From contig WFYJ01000072.1 in assembly GCA_015490175.1 (NCBI GenBank), forward strand, positions 1 to 34,024: 34,024 bases of DNA. The letters are read 5' to 3'. The position numbers were made by a program, and so were the translations under genes. The stretch comes from Saprospiraceae bacterium (GTDB lineage: Bacteria > Bacteroidota > Bacteroidia > Chitinophagales > Saprospiraceae). The notes beneath the pieces were generated by a model, which did not search any database, was not told where the DNA came from, and was given only the letters and a program-made list of their open reading frames with translations. Positions 12,690 through 24,711 of this stretch are shown piece after piece (within the stretch, counting starts at the first letter, position 1; each line of letters opens with the position of its first letter).

Positions 12690-15600
12690 TCAGCGCCTGA
12701 GCTGCACGTACCCCGACAGCACCTTGCCGTCGCCATATTCGAGCAGATAGAAGTAGGTGCCATCGGGCAGGTCCAGATTCTTGAACGTGCCGTCCCAGTC
12801 GTTGTGGTAGGGCGATGCATGAAAGACCTCTTCGCCCCAGCGATTGAAAATGCTGAGCGAGTGGTGGGGCCACCACTCTATGCCTTCGATGACGAAGTAA
12901 TCGTTGATGCCATCGCCGTTTGGCGAAAAGCCGGTATAGGGCTGTGGCTCCGGGCAATACACGACGATCGTCACTTCGGCCGTATCGCAGCCGTTGGCGT
13001 CGCACAGTTCATAGCGCAACCGCTCGGTACCGCACCAGGCTTCGGGGACGGCATAGGCCACCACATTGCCCGCCGCATGCGCACTGCCTTTCAGCTCCGT
13101 TTCAGGGGGCAGCACCGTCAGACTGACGAGCGGATCGGTCCACGAATCATTGGCCAGCACCTCCAGCTCGACGCGCCGGCCGGGCCGCACCGTGTCGGCA
13201 TCGGCCTGCGCCACCGGCACGGGTCGCTTGTCGCTGCGCACGTGGACGAGGTAGTGGGTCGAATCGGTGCCGCCCCACGCGTCCCGGGCCACCAGCAGAT
13301 AGTGATCGGTGCCCGGGCTGAGGCCGCGCACTTGCTGGCAGTACGCTTCGAGCGGCGTGCGCGCCGTGTGGTTGCCTTCCAGGCGCGTGATGTCGAATTG
13401 CACGACCGGACCGGCCAACTGGAACTCAGGACAAAAAACGGTCGCTTCGTCCACGTCGAGGGTATCGCTGATCCATTCCGTTTCGGCACAGACCACTTCC
13501 ACCTGCAGCGTGTCGCTGCATCCAGAGGCCGCCGACTGCCACACGAGCTGATGCACTCCCGGCTCCACGACCAGCCGCACGGCATTTGCCGAAAGGCGCA
13601 CATTGGGCTCGATCACCAACACCGTCATGGTGGGCAAATGGGTCAGCGCCAGGGCACTGACACCGGAAGGTGAGCGATGCCCTTCGAATATGGCTTCCGA
13701 TGCATGCCAGACCCATCCCCCGCTCGGATCTGCTGCCTGGATGTACTGCACCAGCTCTTCGATGGTGGCAAACTGGCCCGAGACGGTCATGCCCTGGATC
13801 TGCCAGCCTTCGAGCAGCCACGGTCCACTGCCCGTGTGGACCGCACTTGCGAGGCTGAATGCCAGCGAGGTGTCGAAAGCACAGCCTTCCTGCATGCCCG
13901 GCACGGGTTGGCCGTCGAGCAGCCATGCGTCATTCGGTCCCCCGCTTTCGGGCAGTGGCACGCACAGCTCGGCACCCGCCGCACAGTCGGTGGTCGTGGC
14001 AGCGAGGAAGGCCGACGCTATCGGATCGTCGGGACAGGGATCCGTCAAGGGGCAATCGAGCGGTACGCTCAGCGAGTCGAGCACGCGCACGCAACCGGCG
14101 CCATCCGTGATGGTTGCGGAAAAGACCGTGGCGGCACTCACGCCCGACACGCTGTTCGAAGTGGAAAGCCCCGGCTCCCAATCGAAACTCAGAGGGCCGG
14201 TGGCACCGCTCACCATCAGGCTGATGCTGCCATCGTTGCCCGTGCAGGTCTCAGGCTGCACCGCCACTTCGACGCTCCAAGGTTCGGGGGCCGCAAGGGT
14301 GACCCACAGGCTGTCGGCACAGACGGCATCGGCGGGCAACAACAGGTAGTCGCCTGCCGGCAAACCTTCGAGCGGGGTCAGGCCCAGCCACTGCCCCTCG
14401 CGCCACACCTCCGCCTGCAGACCACCCGCAAGGGCGATGCGACCGTCGGTGCCGTCGGGGCAGGAAACGTCCTTCAGCTCGAGCGCATCGGGTGCGATGG
14501 CGGTATGCGGGGGTGCTTCGAGCACGAAAGTGGCTGAAGCCATGCAGCCCGTCGCCTGATCAACCACCGTCACGCCATATGCGCCTGCCGGCAAATGCTG
14601 CGCCTCGGGTCCATCGGCCACGGCCGGGCTCCACAGCCACTGGGCCGGGCCGATGAGATTGGCCGCCGCCACACTGATGGTGCCGTCGTCATTGCTGCAG
14701 CCGGGATGTTGCAGCTGAGCTTCGAGCTGGAGCATGCCGCAGTCCACCGCGGGCGCGGTCACCTGCACCTGCACGATGGTCGTGTCGCAGCCCTGTGCGA
14801 AGCAGTGCACCACACAGAGCGTCTCCATGCCGGCAAAGTCGGCATTTGCGGCAAGCGCAAAACAGGTGCCGCTCAGGTCACTGACCAGCACTGTCTCGTT
14901 GTCGCCGCTGTCGCAAAATGCCGCCGACAGGATGGCGCCCTCGAAGTCGAGCAGGCCGGCATCGTCGAGGCAGACCAAGGCGCTGGCGCCCGCTTCGAGC
15001 GACCACAACAGGGTATCGGTACAACCCGTCTGCGGCACACTGAACTCGATTTTCTGATGACAGTCGTCGAGCCAGGGCAGGGTGGCGATGAGGACGTAAT
15101 CGCCGGCGGGCAATCCGCTCAGCACCCCGTCGTTCCAGGTGCCAAAAGCGGGCAGCCAGCTCAGGGAAAGGGCTTCCTCGGGCAGCGCGAGGGCAAAGGT
15201 GGCTTGCCCGTCGCTCTGCCCACAGGAGGCGGCCTTTATCTCAACGAGTTGCAGGAGCGTATCCGGGCAAGCGCACAGATCGTCCACTTCGATGTGTTGT
15301 TGCACCTGGGTACTGTTGCCGCAATCATCGGTGGCCGTCCAGGTGCGGGTGAGCACGTAGTCGCAGCCATTGGCAAGGAAGGTGGTATCTTCGACAAAGA
15401 CAACCTCGGGTGCACTGTCGCAGGCGTCATTTGCCGAAAGGCCGGCCGGCGGCGGCACCTGCTCGCCCGCCCACAGCAGGATGCTCGTGTCGGGCGGGGC
15501 GGCTTCGAGGGCGGGCGCCTCATCGTCCACCACGCGCACCACGATGCAGAATTCGCTGGTATTGCCACAGGCATCGGTCGCCGTCCAGCAACACCGCAGC

Positions 15601-18600
15601 CGGATCAGGTAGCCGTCGCTGCAGTCGCCTACGGTGACGTCTTCGGTAAACGTCAGCGCTGCGTCGCTGCAAGCATCGGCAGCCAGCACGTCGTCGGCGC
15701 CCAGAACGATGGGTGCCGCACAGGACACCTCGATGCTGTCGCCGTGTTGCAGCCCTTGCAGCGCCGGATGAATGGGCGTCAGCACGGGCGGCACGTCGTC
15801 CACCACCGTGATGAGCTGCTGGGCGCTGGTGCTGTGGCCGCAGTCGTCGGTGGCCGTCCAGGTGCGAATGATCTTTTCCGTGCAGGCATCCGAAACGACG
15901 ACTTCCTCCATCACTACCTCCACCTGATCGTCGCAGCCATCGGTGGCCTGCACGTCGGGCGGGGTCGGCACGTCGGTGCACGATACCGTCAGGTCGGCAG
16001 GTACCCCCGTCAGCACGGGAGCGGCTTCATCCACGCCACGCACTTCGACCTCTGCCGTAGCTGCGTTGCCGCAGGGGTCGGTGAGGGTCCAGCGCCAGCG
16101 TTGCCGCCACAGGAAACCATCGTCGGTGCAGTTGCCGGCCTCGTCGAGTACCAGCTCGACCTGCACGTCCACTGCGTCGGCGCAGTCGTCCCATCCCGAC
16201 ACGGCATCGGCGCCAAAATCGGGCACCTGATCACAGGGCACTTCGATGAGGCCTCCGCCTTGCGGCAAATCCTGCAACAGAGGATCTTCCCAGTGCACGG
16301 TGGGCGGCACGGTATCGAGCAAGGTCAGCTTCTGCAGGCCGATGCGGCTGTTGCCGCAATCGTCGGTAGCCACATAGGTGCGCAACACCAGGCGCGGGCA
16401 GCCGTCGTCGAGCACCTCGTCGGTCCAGGTGAGCTCGGGCGACAGGTCGCAGTCGTCGGCCACCTTGATGTTTTCGGTCACCTCAGTGCCGCAGTCCACC
16501 GTCAGGTCGGGGATGTTCAGGATGAACGGTGCGAGGTTGTCGCCGGTGGTGATGGTCTGCGTCCAGGTGGTCGCAAGGCCACACTGGTCGGTAGCCGTCC
16601 AGGTGCGCAGGATGGTGAGGCCGCCGGCGCAGCCTCCCGTGCCGCTGCCGCTGGTCGTCTCTTCGAAGGTGATGTCCACGGGGCCAAGGTTGTCGGTGGC
16701 CGTCAGCACGGGTGGATCAGCGATCTGCGGGTCGGTGCAACCCACCGTCTCGTCGGGCGGCAGTTGGTCGAACTGGGGCGGCTCGGCATCGTACAGTCCG
16801 GCATCGAACGCGTAGGTGCCGCCCCCGCCCGCCACAAAGGCGCCCGTGCGGCCCGTGGCGGGATCGGCATCGCTGTCGAGGGCGTCGTTGCCCGCGTTTT
16901 GAGGCGAAAAGGCCAGCCCGGTGGGGGAGGCCGGTGCCGAGAACGTCACCTCGTAAGTGCCGGCGGGCAAATCGACGAAATGATAGTTGCCGGCAGCATC
17001 GGTGGTGCCCGACAGGCTCAGGTCGGTGCCGTCGAGCGCCGTCCCGACGAGGGTGACGGGCACCCCGGGCAGGCCATCTTCGCCCGTATCTTGCAGGCCG
17101 TCGGCATCGCAATCGAGCCAGACACGGCCCATCACCTGTGCATAGGGCAACACATAGCCGGCGTCCATATGCTCGAGGTCGCCGGCCACCGGATCGAAGT
17201 CGAAAAGGGAAGTCTGCTGCGTCTGCGGATCGATGTCGCTGTCCAGCGCATCGTCGCCGGCATCGGGGATGGTGGCCTCGTAGTCGGCAATGCCGGCGGC
17301 GTTGGTGCTCACGTCGAAGGCGAGGTAATAGGTACCCGCCAGCACGCCCTCGAACAGGTACGCGCCGCTGGCATCGGTCATGGCCGTGCCCACGAGGTCG
17401 TGGCTTTCGCCAAAAAGGCGCACCGTCACGCCCCGGATGCCCGGCTCACCGGCATCCTGCAGGCCGTCCTGGTCGTTGTCCTGCCACACGCGCCCCCTCA
17501 CGGCTGCCGTCGGCTCCACGAGCCCTGCATCCAGATCGAGGTCTCCGTCGAGGGGATCGAAGATCACCAGAGCGGTATTTCCCGTAAGGGGATCCACGTC
17601 GCTGTCCAGGGCGTCGTCGCCGGCATCCTGTGGCGCAAACTGGTAATTGGGCACGCCGGCCGTATTGGTCGAGGGGTCGAAATGGAGGTAGTAGCTACCC
17701 AGCAACACGCCCTCGAAGAAGTAGTTGCCCAAGGCATCGGTGAGCACCGACGCCAGCAGGGTGCCGTCGGCGTCGAACAACTGCACCGTCACGCCTGCCA
17801 CGCCGGCCTCGCCTGCGTCCTGCAAGCCGTTGCCATTGGCATCGGCCCAGGCGCGACCGCCGATTCCCGCCGCCGGCTCCACGAGGCCGGCGTCCAGATC
17901 CAGGTCTCCGTCGAGCGGATCGAAGGCCACGAGGGCGGTATTTCCCGTAAGGGGATCCACATCGCTGTCCAGCGCATCGTCGCCGGCATCCTGCGGCGCG
18001 AATTGATAGTTGGGCACGCCGGCAGCGTTGGTCGAGGGGTCGAAGGCGAGGTAGTACTGCCCGGCAGGCAGCTCGTCGAAGGCATAGGTGCCGTCGGCAG
18101 CCGAAGTGACCGTGGCCAGCAGGTTGTCGTCGGCATCGTAGAGGCGCACGGTCACGCCGGCCACCCCGCCCTCGCCGGCATCCTGCAGGCCGTCGCCGTC
18201 GGTATCGGCCCAGACGGTGCCCGTGATTGTGCCTTTCGGCAAATAGAACCCGGCATCCACGTCCAGATCGCCCTCGGACGGATCGAAGCTGAAGTCCGGC
18301 GTGCGGCCCGTATCGGGATCGACATCGGAATCGTTGGCTCCGTTGCCCTGCCCCATCGGCGAAAAGACCAGTCCGGCGAGCCCTGCACTGTTGCCGGCGG
18401 GATCGAACGCGAGGTAGTAGGTTCCTGCCTCGACGTTGGGGAAGAAATAGGTGCCATCGGCCTGGCTGGCGAGCTGGGCCACGAGGGTGCCATCGGCGCG
18501 ATACAAGCCGATCTGCACGCCGCCCAGGCCTCCTTCGCCCGGGTCCTGGATGCCGTCACCATCGTCATCGAGCCAGACAAAGCCGCCGATGCCGGCAATG

Positions 18601-20930
18601 GGGTTGGCATTGTCGGATCCGAAGCCGAAGTCGAGGTCGTAATCCACGAATCCGGCACCGTCCGGGGTGAACGCAATGAACGGCATGGCCGCAAAGGCGC
18701 CGCCGGCCTGCAAGCCGGCAGGCAGGGCGTCGGAGTCGTTCTTGTCGGGATGGGGCGCCATGCCGGTATTGGCCTGCGTGATGTAGAACGCTCCGTTGAG
18801 CAAGCCCGTAGCCGGATCGAACTGGCCGCCCGTGCCGGCCACGAGGTAGTATTCGTTTTGCGAAAGCGAATCGAACAGGAAGCTGTAGCGCCCGAGGGCG
18901 TCGGTCTGTGTGGTGGCCAGCACATTGCCGGCGGCGTCGTAAAGCGCGACGTTGACGCCTTCCAACGGCGGCTCGCACGGATCCTGTACGCCGTCGTTGT
19001 TCAGGTCGCGCCACACGGTGCCGCCGGCCGCCACGGGCGGCGTGCCCGTGAGCAGCTCCTCGATGGCGCCCAGGCCATTGGCTTTGGAAAAGGTCGAAAT
19101 GGTCGAGGTGGAGCTGCGATAGAGCACGTATCCGGGCAGTTGCACCTCGCCGGTCAGGTTGTCCATCCAGTTGACGCCGCCCGAGTTGAAGAGCGTGCTG
19201 TAGGGGTCGAGGGCCGTCGTGGCCACCTTGCCGGCTCCGGGCCAGAAGGCCAGGTCGCCCTGGGCCGTCTCGGCATGCGGCGGCGTGGGGATGTTGTCGG
19301 CAGGGCCTTTGAAGATGTCCTCGAAGTAGTATTCGCCACCGCCCGGCCCCTGGCCGTTGTCGGCGCCACCCGTGGTGATGTCGCCGGCGGTGCCGTTGTT
19401 TTCGAGTACCCACTCGCCATCCTGATAGTCGAGCCGCAGCAGGTCGCCGCCGGAGATGTTGGACATGAGGGGCGAGGTGCCCACAGGAGGCCAGTTTTTA
19501 TTGCCCAACTGGTGGCCGGCCCGATCCATGAAGCCGAGCAGCATCGAGCCGTCCACGTCGAAAGCGATGTCGGACAATACCGGCTGGGGATAGACGTAGG
19601 TGGCGCCGGCATCGCAGGTGGGAGGCGTGGTGTCGGACCAAGGGTACCATCCCGGAAAGTTTTCGCAATTGTTGGCATTGGCGGCATAGCCCTTGGGATA
19701 GCTCAGGTCGAACCGCACCACTTGCTCGAAGGTGCCATTTGCCGAAAGGCGAAAAACAATGGCTTCCAGATCGGCGGTGTCCTGGCTTATGGCTGCATCG
19801 CACACGCCACCGACGTACACCTGACCGCGCCAGACCTTCACGGCAAAGGGTCGGAAGGTGCCGCCCGAGCAGTCGGCATCGGGCAGCGTCCAGGCCGTAA
19901 GGTCGGCCTCGGTGGGCGGAGTGGCCGGATCGCCGTCGCTGTCGGGATGAAGGCTGTAGAGCTTGCCGTCGTAGAGGTTGACCAGCCAGAGCAAGCCCGT
20001 GGCGGGGTCGTAGTCGAGACCGCCCAGCCCCTGTTTGCCCACGGCACCATAGGCTTCCGGATCGTTGCTCGGCCCATCGAGCGTGAGGGGCAGGCCACGG
20101 CCGCTGTTCGAGGGCAAGGTGCCGCAAGCGATGCCCAGGGCCTCGAGATCTGCGAGCGGCTGCGTGACGGGATTGGCCGGATCGCCCAGATCGATGCGGT
20201 AGATGCCCCCCAGACCGAGCGGACCCAAGCCCACGTGGCGCTTCACGAATGCCGAAGTGTAGAGCTGATGGCCGTTGCGGTCCCAAGCCAGGCCGTAGCA
20301 GGCGCCGATCTCGCCCGCTGCGGCGATGTGGTCGGGTGGCACGCTGTTGCCCGTCGAGGTCCAGTTGAACAGCACGAGCACGTCCATGTCGCGGGCTTCG
20401 GAGTTTTGCGGCAGCGGGTCGCCATTGACGAAGCAGGTGGCGGCCAGATCCGGATCGGGTTCGGCATAGTCGTCGGGATGCGTGAAGGCCGCATTGGCAT
20501 CGCAGCTCGGAGCGGTCACCGTTTGCACAGCCCCGCCATGGTCGGCCCCGGCCGGAGCATCAATATAACCCAGCCCTGGCGGCGGTGAAAACTCGAGGCG
20601 GTAGGCCGCGCCGTCCGTCAATCCGCTGAAGAAGTACCGGCCCAGACCGTCCGTCGTGGTCGAATCGAGCAGCACGCTCGCCCCGTCGGCATCACAACCG
20701 AACAGATACACCCTGACATCGGGCAGAGGCGAGACCTGGTCGTCGAGGCCATTGTAGTTGAAATCGCCAAAGACCTTGCCTCCGATCACACCCGGCCCAC
20801 CCGGACACGGAGCCGGCGTCATCTGCCAGCCTTCTTCGTATGCATACTCGGAAGTGAATGCAAAAGCGGTCCATAGCCAGACGAATACTGCCAGCAGTAC
20901 CGGCAACAGGGGTAGTTTTCTCATGGTCAT
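12690..20930 (-). CDS. giant modular adhesin: SdrD-B, HYR-like and SprB-like repeats, T9SS type B sorting domain
   Basis: 2746 residues from ATG 20930 (alternative 20924); both open a signal peptide (MRKLPLLPVLLAVFVWLWTA). By rough residue position: one SdrD B-like/Cna-B module (50-125); a long beta-rich domain (145-615); six tandem SdrD B-like modules (635-1380) starting G-x-V/A-W-x-D-x-(D/N)-x-DG-x-QD; six Cys-paired HYR-like repeats (1380-1900) marked by WTATDDCGNS; SprB-like repeats (1900-2290) marked by LPAG(A/D)Y and VTD..TGC; a VLANDS Ig/cadherin-like module (2560-2660); and the CHU_C/gliding-motility C-terminal domain (2660-2746: GFSPNGDGINDYF, IFNRWGEEVF, W, GTYFYLLEY). That ending directs export through T9SS to the cell surface. 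Many D-x-D-x-DG loops suggest Ca2+ binding. Function as adhesin or gliding component is inferred from architecture. The antisense strand carries an accidental open frame of almost 2000 codons. Confidence 0.93.
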   Translation of the reverse strand: MTMRKLPLLPVLLAVFVWLWTAFAFTSEYAYEEGWQMTPAPCPGGPGVIGGKVFGDFNYNGLDDQVSPLPDVRVYLFGCDADGASVLLDSTTTDGLGRYFFSGLTDGAAYRLEFSPPPGLGYIDAPAGADHGGAVQTVTAPSCDANAAFTHPDDYAEPDPDLAATCFVNGDPLPQNSEARDMDVLVLFNWTSTGNSVPPDHIAAAGEIGACYGLAWDRNGHQLYTSAFVKRHVGLGPLGLGGIYRIDLGDPANPVTQPLADLEALGIACGTLPSNSGRGLPLTLDGPSNDPEAYGAVGKQGLGGLDYDPATGLLWLVNLYDGKLYSLHPDSDGDPATPPTEADLTAWTLPDADCSGGTFRPFAVKVWRGQVYVGGVCDAAISQDTADLEAIVFRLSANGTFEQVVRFDLSYPKGYAANANNCENFPGWYPWSDTTPPTCDAGATYVYPQPVLSDIAFDVDGSMLLGFMDRAGHQLGNKNWPPVGTSPLMSNISGGDLLRLDYQDGEWVLENNGTAGDITTGGADNGQGPGGGEYYFEDIFKGPADNIPTPPHAETAQGDLAFWPGAGKVATTALDPYSTLFNSGGVNWMDNLTGEVQLPGYVLYRSSTSTISTFSKANGLGAIEELLTGTPPVAAGGTVWRDLNNDGVQDPCEPPLEGVNVALYDAAGNVLATTQTDALGRYSFLFDSLSQNEYYLVAGTGGQFDPATGLLNGAFYITQANTGMAPHPDKNDSDALPAGLQAGGAFAAMPFIAFTPDGAGFVDYDLDFGFGSDNANPIAGIGGFVWLDDDGDGIQDPGEGGLGGVQIGLYRADGTLVAQLASQADGTYFFPNVEAGTYYLAFDPAGNSAGLAGLVFSPMGQGNGANDSDVDPDTGRTPDFSFDPSEGDLDVDAGFYLPKGTITGTVWADTDGDGLQDAGEGGVAGVTVRLYDADDNLLATVTSAADGTYAFDELPAGQYYLAFDPSTNAAGVPNYQFAPQDAGDDALDSDVDPLTGNTALVAFDPLDGDLDLDAGLVEPAAGIGGRAWADANGNGLQDAGEAGVAGVTVQLFDADGTLLASVLTDALGNYFFEGVLLGSYYLHFDPSTNTAGVPNYQFAPQDAGDDALDSDVDPLTGNTALVIFDPLDGDLDLDAGLVEPTAAVRGRVWQDNDQDGLQDAGEPGIRGVTVRLFGESHDLVGTAMTDASGAYLFEGVLAGTYYLAFDVSTNAAGIADYEATIPDAGDDALDSDIDPQTQQTSLFDFDPVAGDLEHMDAGYVLPYAQVMGRVWLDCDADGLQDTGEDGLPGVPVTLVGTALDGTDLSLSGTTDAAGNYHFVDLPAGTYEVTFSAPASPTGLAFSPQNAGNDALDSDADPATGRTGAFVAGGGGTYAFDAGLYDAEPPQFDQLPPDETVGCTDPQIADPPVLTATDNLGPVDITFEETTSGSGTGGCAGGLTILRTWTATDQCGLATTWTQTITTGDNLAPFILNIPDLTVDCGTEVTENIKVADDCDLSPELTWTDEVLDDGCPRLVLRTYVATDDCGNSRIGLQKLTLLDTVPPTVHWEDPLLQDLPQGGGLIEVPCDQVPDFGADAVSGWDDCADAVDVQVELVLDEAGNCTDDGFLWRQRWRWTLTDPCGNAATAEVEVRGVDEAAPVLTGVPADLTVSCTDVPTPPDVQATDGCDDQVEVVMEEVVVSDACTEKIIRTWTATDDCGHSTSAQQLITVVDDVPPVLTPIHPALQGLQHGDSIEVSCAAPIVLGADDVLAADACSDAALTFTEDVTVGDCSDGYLIRLRCCWTATDACGNTSEFCIVVRVVDDEAPALEAAPPDTSILLWAGEQVPPPAGLSANDACDSAPEVVFVEDTTFLANGCDYVLTRTWTATDDCGNSTQVQQHIEVDDLCACPDTLLQLVEIKAASCGQSDGQATFALALPEEALSLSWLPAFGTWNDGVLSGLPAGDYVLIATLPWLDDCHQKIEFSVPQTGCTDTLLWSLEAGASALVCLDDAGLLDFEGAILSAAFCDSGDNETVLVSDLSGTCFALAANADFAGMETLCVVHCFAQGCDTTIVQVQVTAPAVDCGMLQLEAQLQHPGCSNDDGTISVAAANLIGPAQWLWSPAVADGPEAQHLPAGAYGVTVVDQATGCMASATFVLEAPPHTAIAPDALELKDVSCPDGTDGRIALAGGLQAEVWREGQWLGLTPLEGLPAGDYLLLPADAVCADSLWVTLAAPEPWSVEVAVQPETCTGNDGSISLMVSGATGPLSFDWEPGLSTSNSVSGVSAATVFSATITDGAGCVRVLDSLSVPLDCPLTDPCPDDPIASAFLAATTTDCAAGAELCVPLPESGGPNDAWLLDGQPVPGMQEGCAFDTSLAFSLASAVHTGSGPWLLEGWQIQGMTVSGQFATIEELVQYIQAADPSGGWVWHASEAIFEGHRSPSGVSALALTHLPTMTVLVIEPNVRLSANAVRLVVEPGVHQLVWQSAASGCSDTLQVEVVCAETEWISDTLDVDEATVFCPEFQLAGPVVQFDITRLEGNHTARTPLEAYCQQVRGLSPGTDHYLLVARDAWGGTDSTHYLVHVRSDKRPVPVAQADADTVRPGRRVELEVLANDSWTDPLVSLTVLPPETELKGSAHAAGNVVAYAVPEAWCGTERLRYELCDANGCDTAEVTIVVYCPEPQPYTGFSPNGDGINDYFVIEGIEWWPHHSLSIFNRWGEEVFHASPYHNDWDGTFKNLDLPDGTYFYLLEYGDGKVLSGYVQLRR
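12919..12932 (+). repeat. mini-hairpin motif, pentaloop variant TTTGGC-GAAAA-GCC
   Basis: Falls on the codons for FSPNG of the CHU_C domain, so protein constraint may explain it. Listed as a doubtful member. Confidence 0.25.
13585..13597 (+). repeat. mini-hairpin motif, TTTGCC-GAAA-GGC
   Basis: Exact 13-mer, antisense within the adhesin gene, in a region coding for a non-repeated part of the protein. Confidence 0.55.
15430..15442 (+). repeat. mini-hairpin motif, TTTGCC-GAAA-GGC
   Basis: Exact 13-mer, antisense within the HYR-like part of the adhesin gene (codons for LSAND). Confidence 0.55.
17402..17414 (-). repeat. mini-hairpin motif, TTTGGC-GAAA-GCC
   Basis: Exact 13-mer in the sense orientation of the adhesin gene, extended to TTTTTGGC (to 17416). 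It encodes LFGES, and the corresponding positions of sister SdrD modules do not carry it. Confidence 0.55.
17578..17590 (+). repeat. mini-hairpin motif, TTTCCC-GTAA-GGG
   Basis: GTAA loop with a CCC/GGG stem, inside the first copy of the 363-bp repeat. It recurs at 17941-17953 by duplication, so the two count as one event. Confidence 0.4.
17941..17953 (+). repeat. mini-hairpin motif, TTTCCC-GTAA-GGG (duplicate)
   Basis: Second copy, in the neighbouring 363-bp module. It is kept unchanged although adjacent codons have diverged. Confidence 0.4.
18231..18243 (-). repeat. mini-hairpin motif, TTTGCC-GAAA-GGC
   Basis: Exact 13-mer in sense orientation at the linker between two SdrD modules (codons for LPKG). 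Confidence 0.55.
18856..18867 (+). repeat. mini-hairpin motif, TTTTGC-GAAA-GC
   Basis: Antisense within the first of the tandem SdrD modules (codons for LSQN). The flanks TTCG/CGAA extend the dyad symmetry. Confidence 0.5.
19738..19750 (+). repeat. mini-hairpin motif, TTTGCC-GAAA-GGC
   Basis: Exact 13-mer, antisense in the propeller-like region of the adhesin gene (codons for RLSAN). Confidence 0.55.
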
Positions 20931-21215
20931 CAGATTACGGGCAGTGTTCGGAATTGCCCCGAAGGGCCTTGCAATGGGGGGCAAATGCATTACAGTTGCC
21001 ACATGCCGAAACGTTGTGCTTCCGACAGGAGCACACAGCATTCTTGCATGTGGACATACCGGCTAATGGGAAGAGGGGGGATTGTCAGGGGCATCGTTTC
21101 GTGCAGACACACGAATACCGTTGCATGGATTGCATGCAAAAACTGTGACAAGCTGAGAAAAACGGAATTTCAACAATTGATATTCAGGAAAAGACGCTGT
21201 ATCCCATGGTACAAA
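20931..21215. other. intergenic region upstream of the adhesin gene
   Basis: 285 bp without a credible gene. A stem GCCC-CGAA-GGGC flanked by ATTG/CAAT lies near 20953-20976, in what should be the adhesin leader. No TAnnTTTG box was found on the minus strand, so the adhesin promoter is not identified. Confidence 0.5.
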
Positions 21216-21300: not shown

Positions 21301-21393
21301 TGTGCTTTGTTCGCGGAATTTACCCTCGGTCCTTGCTGTCCTGACCGCCGGCCGCCTCATGACGTTCAGAGACGGCGCCTCGCGGCGTACAGC

Positions 21394-21492
21394 TCAGAAC
21401 CTGCGGTTGGCGCGTTCGATGGCCATCTCGGTCAACCAGATGGTGCCCCCACCCAGCAAGACGGCTCCCATGGCCACATACAGAATCAACAT
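21394..21492 (-). CDS. 32-residue hydrophobic small protein, paralogue of 22081-22164
   Basis: The frame starts MLILYVAMGAVLLGGG and ends with a polar basic tail (IERANRRF). It is a single predicted membrane helix of about 20 residues with the charge on the tail side. It aligns with the small ORF 600 bp upstream on the same strand (MLI-x-Y-x-AM-x-A-x-L-x-GG), and both have CGCT directly before the ATG. It is bracketed by a perfect -7 box (21670-21677) and a strong terminator (21216-21250), so it sits on its own transcript of about 445 nt with a 5' leader of about 165 nt. I do not recognise the family. It might be a small membrane-complex subunit or a type I toxin-like peptide; both ideas are inference. 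Confidence 0.6.
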   Translation of the reverse strand: MLILYVAMGAVLLGGGTIWLTEMAIERANRRF

Positions 21493-22040
21493 AGCGTAAT
21501 CGGTTTTCAGTTGAAAAAAATGCGAACGGTAAATGGTCTCTTTCCGGATGTGTCGAGCACAACCGAATGTTCATGGGATGGAAAAAAACGGCACCACGGA
21601 ATGCGGGCCGCTATGTTCGATGGGATAATAATTCGGGCAGGCGCAAGAGATAGTCGTCCCTGTACGGGTCAAATATAAAACATCTCACTTATTAGAAAAA
21701 TGGCAATTTCCTTGCCAGAATTGCAACGCGCCCTCCTCTTTCCGGCTTTTTCTCCGGAAAAAGTCAAAAATCAGGCACTTCCAAACAGATGGGAAACACA
21801 CCCGCTCCTCCACTGAAAACGGCAATCAAGTCCTTTTCCCGTGAGGCAACGGATACGTTTCTACCCTGAAAGATGATTGGCGCACCTCCCCTCGCAGCCA
21901 TTCGCTTTTTTTCCGCACAGGCAGAAAAGGCACTGCTCCTGCCAGGCAGCAGAAACAGCAAAGCGAACGGACAACAATGGTTTGTGGGGTTTCGGAGCGT
22001 TTTTCGGGGCAGATTCGGGGAAGGCTATGCTCTATGGGAT
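21493..22040. other. intergenic region between the two small ORFs
   Basis: It contains the leader of the 32-residue ORF up to 21660 and its -7 box. Beyond it lie an inverted repeat TTTCCGG/CCGGAAA at about 21740-21758 and CTGCT/AGCAG arms near 21940, neither with a T tract. No convincing additional ORF is seen on either strand. Confidence 0.5.
21670..21677 (-). promoter_or_regulatory. -7 box upstream of the 32-residue ORF
   Basis: TATATTTG on the minus strand is a perfect TAnnTTTG. A TTG lies about 26 bp further upstream, slightly longer than the usual spacing. Confidence 0.5.
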
Positions 22041-22063
22041 AAAGAATGGCTGTTGGGACAGCC
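22041..22063 (-). terminator. probable weak terminator after the 27-residue ORF
   Basis: GGCTGT-CCCA-ACAGCC, a perfect 6-bp stem 17 bp after the stop codon, is followed on the minus strand by ATTCTTTAT. The T tract is interrupted. Confidence 0.45.
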
Positions 22064-22080
22064 GGGCTCGAAGCGAAACA

Positions 22081-22164
22081 TCAACGCCGAGCGGTCTGGT
22101 TGGTAGCGACCACGACCAGCCCTCCGATCAGGAAGGCCGTCATCGCCAGATAAACAATGAGCAT
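22081..22164 (-). CDS. 27-residue hydrophobic small protein, paralogue of 21394-21492
   Basis: The frame starts MLIVYLAMTAFLIGG and ends TNQTARR: one membrane helix and a short basic tail. Residues 1-15 match the other small ORF at ten positions (M1, L2, I3, Y5, A7, M8, A10, L12, G14, G15), and the DNA match extends into the bases before the ATG (CGCT). Several third codon positions differ while residues are kept, which argues for coding. It lies 115 bp after the sulfatase stop on the same strand, so it may be the last gene of that operon or have its own promoter. The function is unknown. Confidence 0.55.
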   Translation of the reverse strand: MLIVYLAMTAFLIGGLVVVATNQTARR

Positions 22165-22279
22165 AGCGGTCTTCGTTTTGTGAATGAACAAATCATGCGT
22201 TTGCGCCCGCCAATTTTGCAAAAAATCGGCAATTGACAAAAATCAATCCCGAAAATTTGGCCCCCACCCTTTTGAAAAT

Positions 22280-24025
22280 TCATTTCGACTCCTGATCCGC
22301 CGCTGCTCCCACAGATGGTGCGCCCAAAAGGACCGATTCCAGCCACAGGGCCAGGGTATCGTGCCGCCACAGGGGCGCCTGGTGTGCACCTCTGTTCAGG
22401 CCGGGCAAAAAACCCTGCTGCACGAGGCGTTGCACCAGTTGCCTATTGCGCGTGAAGACGTGGAGCGGCGTGGCATGGGCATCCACGATGTGGTAGGTGT
22501 GGTCAATGCCGGGCGGCTGATGATCTCCCACCACGATGAGCAGGTCTTCTTCGTCGAGATGCCTTTCGGCAAAGGCCGCCAGCATGCCCAACTGGTACTC
22601 CACCGCAAGCCGATAGCGGCGCATCATGCCCTTGGGCAGGGCCCACCACGCACCATTCGGACTGTGGCGCACGGTGTCGAGCAGGCGCCAGTCGTCGGGC
22701 AAGGGCGGGGGCAGGTACCAGGGAGCATGCGAATTGGTCGTGATGAAAAACAGGAAATCGGGTCGTGGATCGGGGCGAGCCACCTGTTCGTAGCAATATT
22801 CGAGGCTGTATTGGTCGGGAATGCCGCCAAACGGATTGTAGGGATAGCCTTTGTAGGGAATGTCGCCCCAGCGCAGCCACGTCTCGAAGCCGAAAAAGCC
22901 GTTAATGCGCTCGAGTGGAATGAGCGAGTCGATTTCCCCGGTGGCCTTCATGGTGGAAATGCGCGCGGTGTGGTAGCCGTGCTTCGAAAAGAAGGTCACG
23001 AGGTGTGGGTAAATCCCTTTGTAGTCGAGCAGGCGGTCGTAGGCCAGATGGCTGTCGAGCCACAGGCCCGTCATGGCCGAGGTGAAGGCCAGCCACGACC
23101 GTCCGCCGATGACCGGCGAACGCGAGTAGATGGTCGCCGTATGGATGCCTTCTCTTTCCAGCTTCCGGGTCAGGCTGTCGGTAAAGAGCCGGAAGCTGTC
23201 GCGCGTGTAGGGGCTCACCACCACCGTGGAACCATAGGCCTCGACGAACACGAGGAACACATCGGGCTTGCGCGGCAAGGGTTTGAGCAGGTTGGCCTGC
23301 AGTTTTTTGAAAAAAGGCCCTTGCGCCAGGGAATCCGTTGCAGGCGGCTGCAGCGACTCGACCATGCGCGGCGCGAACCACTGCACCGACTGCCAGATGC
23401 CGGGAAAGGTGCCTTTTCGGTATTTCCACGTGCCTGCCGCCACGAACAAGCCGATGAAGAGCCAGATGCCGAGCATCAGCCGATCGGGTCGTGCCCGGGC
23501 AGTCGCCCGCATCCATCGGGCAAAGGCCCAGCCCGCCAGGGCAAGGACGACGCTCAATCCCCCCACTCCAATCACAAGCTGCATCCAGCCCCCTACCCCG
23601 GCTCCTCGCAGAAAAACGGGCAACACTTCTCTGGCCAGCAGATAGTCGTCGGCAAAATGGGGGTGCGTGCCATAGATGCGCTGGTAGAACACCCAATAGG
23701 TATTGTAGGCAAGGAGCAGGACATACAGGCCGGCCCCGAGCCAGGCGGCGATCCGCCACGTGCGGCCGGGCCGCCATCCCCACCACAGCAAAAAAGAAAG
23801 GACGACCCACTCGCCACACAGGCGAAACACGTCCTGGTTGTTGCGGAGGAAGAGGATACGCAAGGGGCCCAGCGTTTCCCCGCCCTCGAGGGTAGTGCTC
23901 GGCCAGAGCGTCGCTTGTTGGTAGTAGAACAGGAAGTTGGGCAGAAAAAGCAAAAAACCCAACGCGGCCCACCATCCCCAGAACCGGAGATACTGCTTCC
24001 TGCTCGAACCTGCCTGTGGTTTCAT
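22280..24025 (-). CDS. LTA synthase-type sulfatase/phosphoglycerol transferase family membrane protein
   Basis: 581 residues from ATG 24025. The start is fixed by the TGATG overlap with the upstream gene's stop; a longer frame to 24295 is only the antisense of that gene. Residues 15-200 hold about five membrane helices, and the periplasmic catalytic domain starts near 250. Sulfatase-fold metal ligands are visible: E262 in FVEAYGS, D501 and H502 in VVGDHQPPG, and H433 in TTNSHAPW. The nucleophile is probably S310 (VIGGRSWLAF), where related enzymes use Thr. Family members transfer phosphoglycerol or phosphoethanolamine head groups to surface polymers or lipids. In Gram-negative Bacteroidota the acceptor is not established. 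The coupling to a CDP-alcohol phosphatidyltransferase gene suggests that the product phospholipid is the donor, which is inference. Confidence 0.85.
   Translation of the reverse strand: MKPQAGSSRKQYLRFWGWWAALGFLLFLPNFLFYYQQATLWPSTTLEGGETLGPLRILFLRNNQDVFRLCGEWVVLSFLLWWGWRPGRTWRIAAWLGAGLYVLLLAYNTYWVFYQRIYGTHPHFADDYLLAREVLPVFLRGAGVGGWMQLVIGVGGLSVVLALAGWAFARWMRATARARPDRLMLGIWLFIGLFVAAGTWKYRKGTFPGIWQSVQWFAPRMVESLQPPATDSLAQGPFFKKLQANLLKPLPRKPDVFLVFVEAYGSTVVVSPYTRDSFRLFTDSLTRKLEREGIHTATIYSRSPVIGGRSWLAFTSAMTGLWLDSHLAYDRLLDYKGIYPHLVTFFSKHGYHTARISTMKATGEIDSLIPLERINGFFGFETWLRWGDIPYKGYPYNPFGGIPDQYSLEYCYEQVARPDPRPDFLFFITTNSHAPWYLPPPLPDDWRLLDTVRHSPNGAWWALPKGMMRRYRLAVEYQLGMLAAFAERHLDEEDLLIVVGDHQPPGIDHTYHIVDAHATPLHVFTRNRQLVQRLVQQGFLPGLNRGAHQAPLWRHDTLALWLESVLLGAPSVGAAADQESK
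22561..22573 (-). repeat. mini-hairpin motif, TTTGCC-GAAA-GGC
   Basis: Exact 13-mer in sense orientation inside the sulfatase gene (codons for FAERH), in a different reading frame from the copies in the adhesin gene. Confidence 0.55.
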
Positions 24026-24711
24026 CAGCGGGGAAAATTTCTGGATGCAACGAACAGCCGCCATGCACTCGCACCAAAGGAAAAAATGACGAGCAAGGAC
24101 ACGAGGCCGATGGCCGGACGATACAGCCACGGATCGAACAACAGCCCTGCAGGCAAAGTGCCCATCAGGATGCCCGCAATGACCTTCCCGAAGCGGAAGC
24201 GCGGCTCCGCCGGGCGGACCATCCGCCACGGCCAAATGGCAACGAAGTAAAGGTAGCGCAACAAACCCACACCGACGATCCACGGCGCCATGCACTCCGT
24301 ACTGGCCAGCAAAACGGTCAGCAGCAGCACGTACAGGGCATCCGTCTCCTTATCCAGCCACGCACCGAAATCGGATGCCGTGCCCCGACTGCGGGCCAGC
24401 CACCCGTCGAAACCATCGGCAATGAGCACCACCACTGCCAGAATAGCAACCCACTCGGGACCCATGCTCCGATACACCAGCAAAAAGAAAAGGACCGCAA
24501 TGAGGCGAAGGCTGGTCAACAGGTTGGCGGGTTCGCCCGCGAAGCGCCAGGTGCCGCGCAGCCGGTGCTCCAACCCGTACAATACGCCCATCGAAGGAAA
24601 AGCGCCCCACGCCACGATCTCGGGCTGGCGCAGCCCCAGGGCAAAGGCCGTCACGAGGATCATCCAGCCAGCGTGAAAGAGCATCCACTGGCTGTAAACG
24701 ACTTTGTTCAT
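24025..24711 (-). CDS. CDP-alcohol phosphatidyltransferase family protein
   Basis: 228 residues from ATG 24711, which overlaps the TGA of the preceding gene (ATGA). Residues 99-124 carry the complete family signature D-x2-DG-x2-AR-x8-G-x3-D-x3-D (DGFDGWLAR, then GAWLDKETD). About six hydrophobic segments surround it, as expected for this integral inner-membrane enzyme. It transfers a phosphatidyl group from a CDP-activated lipid to a small alcohol, such as glycerol-3-phosphate, serine or inositol; the acceptor cannot be read from the sequence. Its stop overlaps the sulfatase start by one base, so translation of the two is coupled and the products are expected in similar amounts. It is longer at the N-terminus than minimal PgsA, with two extra helices before the signature. 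Confidence 0.88.
   Translation of the reverse strand: MNKVVYSQWMLFHAGWMILVTAFALGLRQPEIVAWGAFPSMGVLYGLEHRLRGTWRFAGEPANLLTSLRLIAVLFFLLVYRSMGPEWVAILAVVVLIADGFDGWLARSRGTASDFGAWLDKETDALYVLLLTVLLASTECMAPWIVGVGLLRYLYFVAIWPWRMVRPAEPRFRFGKVIAGILMGTLPAGLLFDPWLYRPAIGLVSLLVIFSFGASAWRLFVASRNFPR

Follow-up and report, generated by a model that had tools for sequence, protein, structure and literature searches.

A family of tiny, predicted single-helix membrane proteins with A and B paralogues in the Saprospiraceae

The locus and its two small genes

The window, a stretch of 34,024 nucleotides from the genome of a Saprospiraceae bacterium, includes a 1.24-kb gap with a sulfatase-like gene on one side and a repeat-protein gene on the other, in which two tiny ORFs are found on the minus strand (Table 1), where the original prediction had placed them. 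Each of them encodes a single uncharged hydrophobic stretch followed by a basic tail, in keeping with the one membrane helix expected of both, and the AlphaFold2 model of ORF1 is a single helix (residues 2-31, pLDDT 91). An in-frame TTG, if used as an alternative start, would yield a 52-aa product from ORF2. Hairpins had also been proposed after both ORFs, but a scan for terminator-like sites returned four, not above chance (1.8 ± 1.2 in shuffles), of which the one nearest to ORF2 follows it (22063-22048) and none is close to ORF1.

Table 1. Features of the ORF1/ORF2 locus, in window coordinates
Feature	Position	Strand	Sequence	Remarks
Repeat protein gene	12690-21041	minus		2783 residues
ORF1, type-B paralogue	21394..21492	minus	MLILYVAMGAVLLGGGTIWLTEMAIERANRRF	32 aa
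Element copy 3	21566..21577	minus	CCCATGAACATT	85 nt before the ORF1 start codon; form in the second species (G001), CCCATGGACATA
Element copy 2	21610..21626	minus	ATCCCATCGAACATAGC	in the long leader region of ORF1
Candidate -7 box for the ORF1 transcript	21670..21679	minus	TTTATATTTG	~175 nt upstream of the ATG
Element copy 1	22024..22040	minus	ATCCCATAGAGCATAGC	3' of ORF2; also in G001
ORF2, type-A-like paralogue	22081..22164	minus	MLIVYLAMTAFLIGGLVVVATNQTARR	27 aa from the ATG
Promoter-like sequence of ORF2	22210..22243	minus	TTTG, ~18-nt spacer, CAAAATTGG	G001 has CAAAATTAGC
Sulfatase-like membrane protein gene	22280-24295			671 aa

Two other reading frames of the region were noted. An 84-codon ORF (21320-21574, minus strand, beginning MNIRLCSTHP) starts at the third element copy, overlaps ORF1 out of frame, shows no conservation and probably arose by chance. 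The large repeat protein contains SdrD-B-like repeats (GxVWxDxDxDGxQDxGExGxxGVxVxL), HYR-like repeats and a C-terminal domain (FNRWGE...DWDG) of the gliding/T9SS type, and has an orthologue at the equivalent place in a second species of the genus (G001).

Compared directly, the two ORFs are weakly similar (tblastn within their own genome, E 0.7), and the case for their kinship therefore comes from relatives. A family profile matches ORF1 and ORF2 at E values of 2.4e-14 and 9.1e-13, both ORFs being in the seed of that profile, and independently trained profiles score both at 35 bits, which bears out the proposed paralogy. In G001 both ORFs are present in the same order and with the same spacing (71% and 78% identity), with dN/dS of ~0.11 for ORF1 and ~0.11 for ORF2. 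The intergenic DNA of the two species is poorly alignable except for the ORFs, the 30 nt that precede each start and the conserved elements. As for the bases said to be shared ahead of the two start codons, just CGCTATG is common to the pair, but an AAAAC-rich leader is found family-wide.

Selection, distribution and paralogues

The ORF1/ORF2 family consists of predicted single-helix proteins with the consensus MLILYIATGAFxxGGGxxxxSNxxxxxxxR, and was read as 116 ORFs of 25-39 residues from fetched loci. Positions M1, Y5, A10, F11, G14 and G15 are nearly invariant, residues 1-20 have a mean Kyte-Doolittle value of 2.2, a charge occurs within residues 1-19 in one of the 116 ORFs, and the tails have a mean charge of +2.7 in type A and are near neutral in type B. 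The codon for Tyr5 is TAC in 83 loci and TAT in 8, a bias that could reflect an additional mRNA constraint near the start.

In 32 close within-genus pairs of both types, synonymous differences far exceed nonsynonymous ones (pS 0.47 versus pN 0.09, omega ~0.1), which indicates translated, selected proteins. A lack of conservation, or frameshifts or stops in relatives, would have spoken against the original prediction; almost every homologue instead keeps an open frame, again with omega ~0.1. By this pattern of substitution, ORF1 and ORF2 are real protein-coding genes under strong purifying selection. The frames are very short and the pair alone is weakly similar, as chance ORFs or pseudogenes might be, but that explanation has next to no probability: it is refuted by the conservation of frame, start and stop and by the synonymous-biased substitution across more than 100 genomes.

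Searches of 61 related genomes with each peptide recovered stand-alone ORFs of matching start and length in ~15 genera. Of 298 sampled Saprospiraceae genomes, 187 match a profile built from 17 sequences at E ≤ 1 and ~115 (a manual count) do so at E ≤ 1e-3; some sampled Saprospiraceae genera yield no match. Among 84,980 named species genomes there are 53 matches, labelled Saprospirales or generically as Bacteroidota or bacterial, with one MAG labelled Chitinophagales; Phaeodactylibacter xiamenensis KD52 and P. luteus KCTC 42180 are included. When the order and the phylum were searched with a 66-sequence profile, all stand-alone matches were confined to Saprospiraceae; candidate homologues outside the family (E ~5e-4) sit within frames of 200-345 residues and were dismissed as chance. 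The family was not found in IMG/VR, phages or plasmids, Pfam and NCBIfam searched with 17 members gave no family above chance, and neither PHROGs nor the PDB sequences hold a relative. The tiny-peptide family is inherited vertically, restricted to this lineage and mostly present in one copy per genome.

The family was previously unnamed, and the sources searched describe no function, paralogue structure or cis element for it. As originally anticipated, ORFs of 25-39 residues are too short for ordinary gene callers. Global small-protein catalogues of the GMSC type probably contain unnamed entries of the family. The ORFs of the GMSC catalogues were predicted from metagenomes down to 30 nt (PMC11364881).

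A maximum-likelihood tree places ORF1 and its G001 orthologue inside a supported 13-row clade (97/87), designated type B, that also holds second copies from other genera, and places ORF2 outside it; the tree is resolved in part, because its 33 columns are few. With the window left out of training, ORF2 scores 35 bits with the A profile versus 23 bits with the B profile. For ORF1, profiles trained without window sequences (35.2 versus 37.5 bits) do not separate A from B, so its assignment to type B rests on the tree. Tandem pairs with the second copy downstream occur in seven genera (g1, g31, g60, g68, g78, g84 and g114), and the position of ORF1 inside the B clade and of ORF2 outside it suggests that the pair in the window is an ancient A/B pair. 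Because the second copies of g31 group in a clade of their own, some tandem pairs may be independent duplications. In g31 a gene for an RRM-type RNA-binding protein immediately precedes the tiny A/B pair (L098, L099, L059).

Promoter, transcript-start element and neighbouring genes

Alignment of 68 loci on TTAG yields a bipartite upstream motif, TTKG-N19-CAnnTTAGC, with A-tracts further up, to which 33 of the 116 loci have strict matches versus 0.9 in shuffles. Like the Bacteroidota primary-sigma promoter class (-33 TTTG, -7 TANNTTTG; PMC6847099), the family motif is bipartite with a spacer of ~19-21 nt; its -7 box differs from TANNTTTG at two positions. Many type-A genes have a predicted Bacteroidota-type promoter of their own. 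The promoter-like sequence of ORF2, read by eye and from the alignment with G001, fits the family motif. The candidate -7 box of ORF1, read from the sequence, resembles TANNTTTG (PMC6847099) but is weak and has no good -33 box.

Directly 3' of the promoter motif, at the predicted transcript start, many A genes have GCCCTCATGAACATA or a variant of it, and variants CCCATnGAnCAT flank the ORF pair of the window. Eight of ten genomes (5-11 Mb) contain the 13-mer GCCCTCATGAACA a single time, in each case 50-65 nt before a family gene, and the remaining two lack it; TCCCATNGANCATA has two sites in the whole 4.1-Mb window genome, both within the ORF1/ORF2 gap and one of them in element copy 1. At many loci an extra copy of the element lies 120-310 nt downstream of the start codon of the type-A gene, with or without a second ORF behind it. 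This element would control expression of the tiny-peptide gene alone. Two other explanations of the element were rejected: as a regulon site, because genome-wide searches found it at the tiny-peptide locus alone, and as an upstream ORF (ATGAACATA), because the ATG is not conserved.

Both in the window (22024-22040) and in other loci, the second CCC..TGAACA copy 3' of the type-A ORF is preceded by a TTATCTC-like sequence. Its distance from the type-A start is ~+291 in L050, +293 in L051, +285 in L048, +226 in L154 and +185 in L157.

Better conservation of the element than of the surrounding leader, its uniqueness to the locus and its repetition 3' of ORF A, also at loci that lack a second ORF, might be explained if the 5' element and the downstream copies formed a regulatory RNA with the peptide as a secondary product (a dual-function RNA). 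This is very unlikely, however, given that the sequence between the elements is not conserved and aligns poorly, that an Rfam search gave chance matches alone, and that selection is clearly on the protein.

The neighbours of the tiny-peptide gene vary by genus (anti-sigma/LepA, DAHP synthase, RRM protein, VWA protein, sulfatase), which indicates an independent gene, not a leader peptide. At the loci examined, the downstream gene is usually convergent and varies by genus, which is not the arrangement of a peptide-leader or attenuator uORF. No neighbour is conserved across genera and no partner was found by genetic linkage. At about one third of the examined loci, A lies directly 3' of a gene for an RskA-like anti-sigma factor, often preceded in turn by an ECF sigma gene, with a convergent LepA gene on the other side of A (the gene names here were assigned by inspecting the sequences rather than by a profile search). 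Such an arrangement would suit a stress-response regulator, a membrane peptide that modulates the neighbouring ECF sigma/anti-sigma pair or another membrane sensor in an envelope-stress pathway, but the neighbour differs in other genera, that of the window included, and the peptide carries its own promoter, which makes this role distinctly unlikely.

At the end of the convergent LepA gene is a strong hairpin whose tail, GGTTTTTCGTTTTG, is unusually conserved across genera (L154, L155, L050, L051, L096, L105). A conserved noncoding RNA downstream of A was considered and discarded: the conserved CAAAACGAAAAACCARC is the reverse reading of the T-tail at the terminator of the convergent LepA gene, and the remainder is not conserved.

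Proposed role and relation to known systems

The role favoured here, at roughly even confidence, is that of a small protein that packs against a helix of a larger inner-membrane complex, as its subunit or regulator. ORF2 and ORF1 would be an ancient A/B pair of lineage-specific, tiny single-span inner-membrane proteins of Saprospiraceae. The N-terminus of the inserted peptide would lie outside, and its C-terminal tail, which is basic and often ends in an aromatic residue, would lie in the cytoplasm; a conserved face of small residues (G9/A10-x-x-x-G14-G15-G16) together with Y5 and F11 would pack against another helix, and the peptide would thereby stabilise or regulate, as a small subunit, a larger protein or complex of the membrane. 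Where the genes are in tandem, A and B probably share a partner or have alternative ones. A docking subunit or regulator is in keeping with the strict small and aromatic residues along a single helix, with vertical inheritance and with the prevalence of single copies, and conservation is residue-specific, beyond mere hydrophobicity. Against this role, no partner was found and no neighbour is conserved, unlike the case of KdpF and CydX, some sampled genera of the bacterial family yield no match, and recurrent tandem duplication, an intergenic site and a conserved leader also occur in type I toxins.

A toxin-like role is the main rival: A and B would be membrane-damaging peptides whose silencing by RNA, either an antisense RNA or a leader in which the start codon is masked, is lifted under stress. 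The family members are small hydrophobic membrane peptides of the kind found in type I toxins (25-39 aa, predicted helix), and the hydrophobic helix of 27-39 aa, the basic tail, the intergenic position and the tandem copies in seven genera all agree with such a role. Each start region has an exact complement of 9 nt within the window, that of ORF2 lying in element copy 1; in the predicted fold this element (GAGCATAGC, conserved in G001) pairs with the ORF2 start region and hides the start codon, and pairing between element and start is also seen at a few other loci. ORF1 shows no such hiding, the fold of its leader is ordinary (z 0.31), and sequestration is not general across the family. Over 30 genera, pairing between matched element and start was no better than mismatched pairing (p 0.15) and weaker than that of the element with other CDS windows. 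A Hok-like fold-back as the general mechanism was accordingly rejected: most other loci lack the 9-nt complement, and the complementary stretch is a copy of the family-wide CCC..GAACAT element. For ORF2 itself a fold-back of this type may still apply.

Type I systems are defined by an antisense RNA (PMC7667032). Promoter scores on the antisense strand equal those of shuffles, and downstream RNA complementarity and duplex energy with the mRNA are no better than shuffles; by these sequence-based tests, no overlapping or adjacent antisense RNA gene was found, and thus not the defining RNA of type I systems. With mostly single copies, vertical inheritance, omega of 0.1 and mobile elements devoid of the family also against it, toxin-like action of the A/B peptides appears unlikely, and less likely than the subunit role. 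The likeness to type I toxin loci in the original prediction is not supported by these tests, and its other suggestion, small subunits of membrane complexes, appears to be the best remaining reading of the two. There is a small probability that the locus is an RNA-controlled membrane-peptide module of a previously undescribed kind, in which the dedicated, repeated start element controls an A/B pair that forms or gates a membrane assembly without an antisense RNA.

The gene family extends across an entire bacterial family that is abundant in the environment, yet standard annotation does not see it; the selection on it is as strong as is typical of an important protein. Through the dedicated 5' element, the control of such a short message becomes directly testable, and cultured members are available (P. 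xiamenensis and P. luteus).

The family resembles TisB, Hok, Ldr, Fst and TimP in length, the single hydrophobic helix, the basic tail, intergenic location and tandem copies, and in having, in the window's own genus, an element able to pair with the start codon. It differs from them in that no antisense promoter or complementary RNA was found, and in its strong residue conservation, mostly single copies and absence from mobile elements. KdpF, CydX, AcrZ and MgtS represent a class of single-helix membrane proteins, ~30 residues long, in which packing residues are conserved, inheritance is vertical and a single copy is present, and KdpF, CydX and many other tiny subunits are encoded in the operon of their partner. 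The ORF1/ORF2 family is unlike this class in having no Pfam, NCBIfam or PDB match and no operon shared with a candidate partner, and in possessing its own predicted promoter, a dedicated 5' element and A/B pairs. It is like these proteins, which belong among the tiny accessory subunits of membrane complexes recognised as a class (PMC7667032), in its length of ~30 residues, predicted single helix, packing residues, vertical inheritance and single copy.
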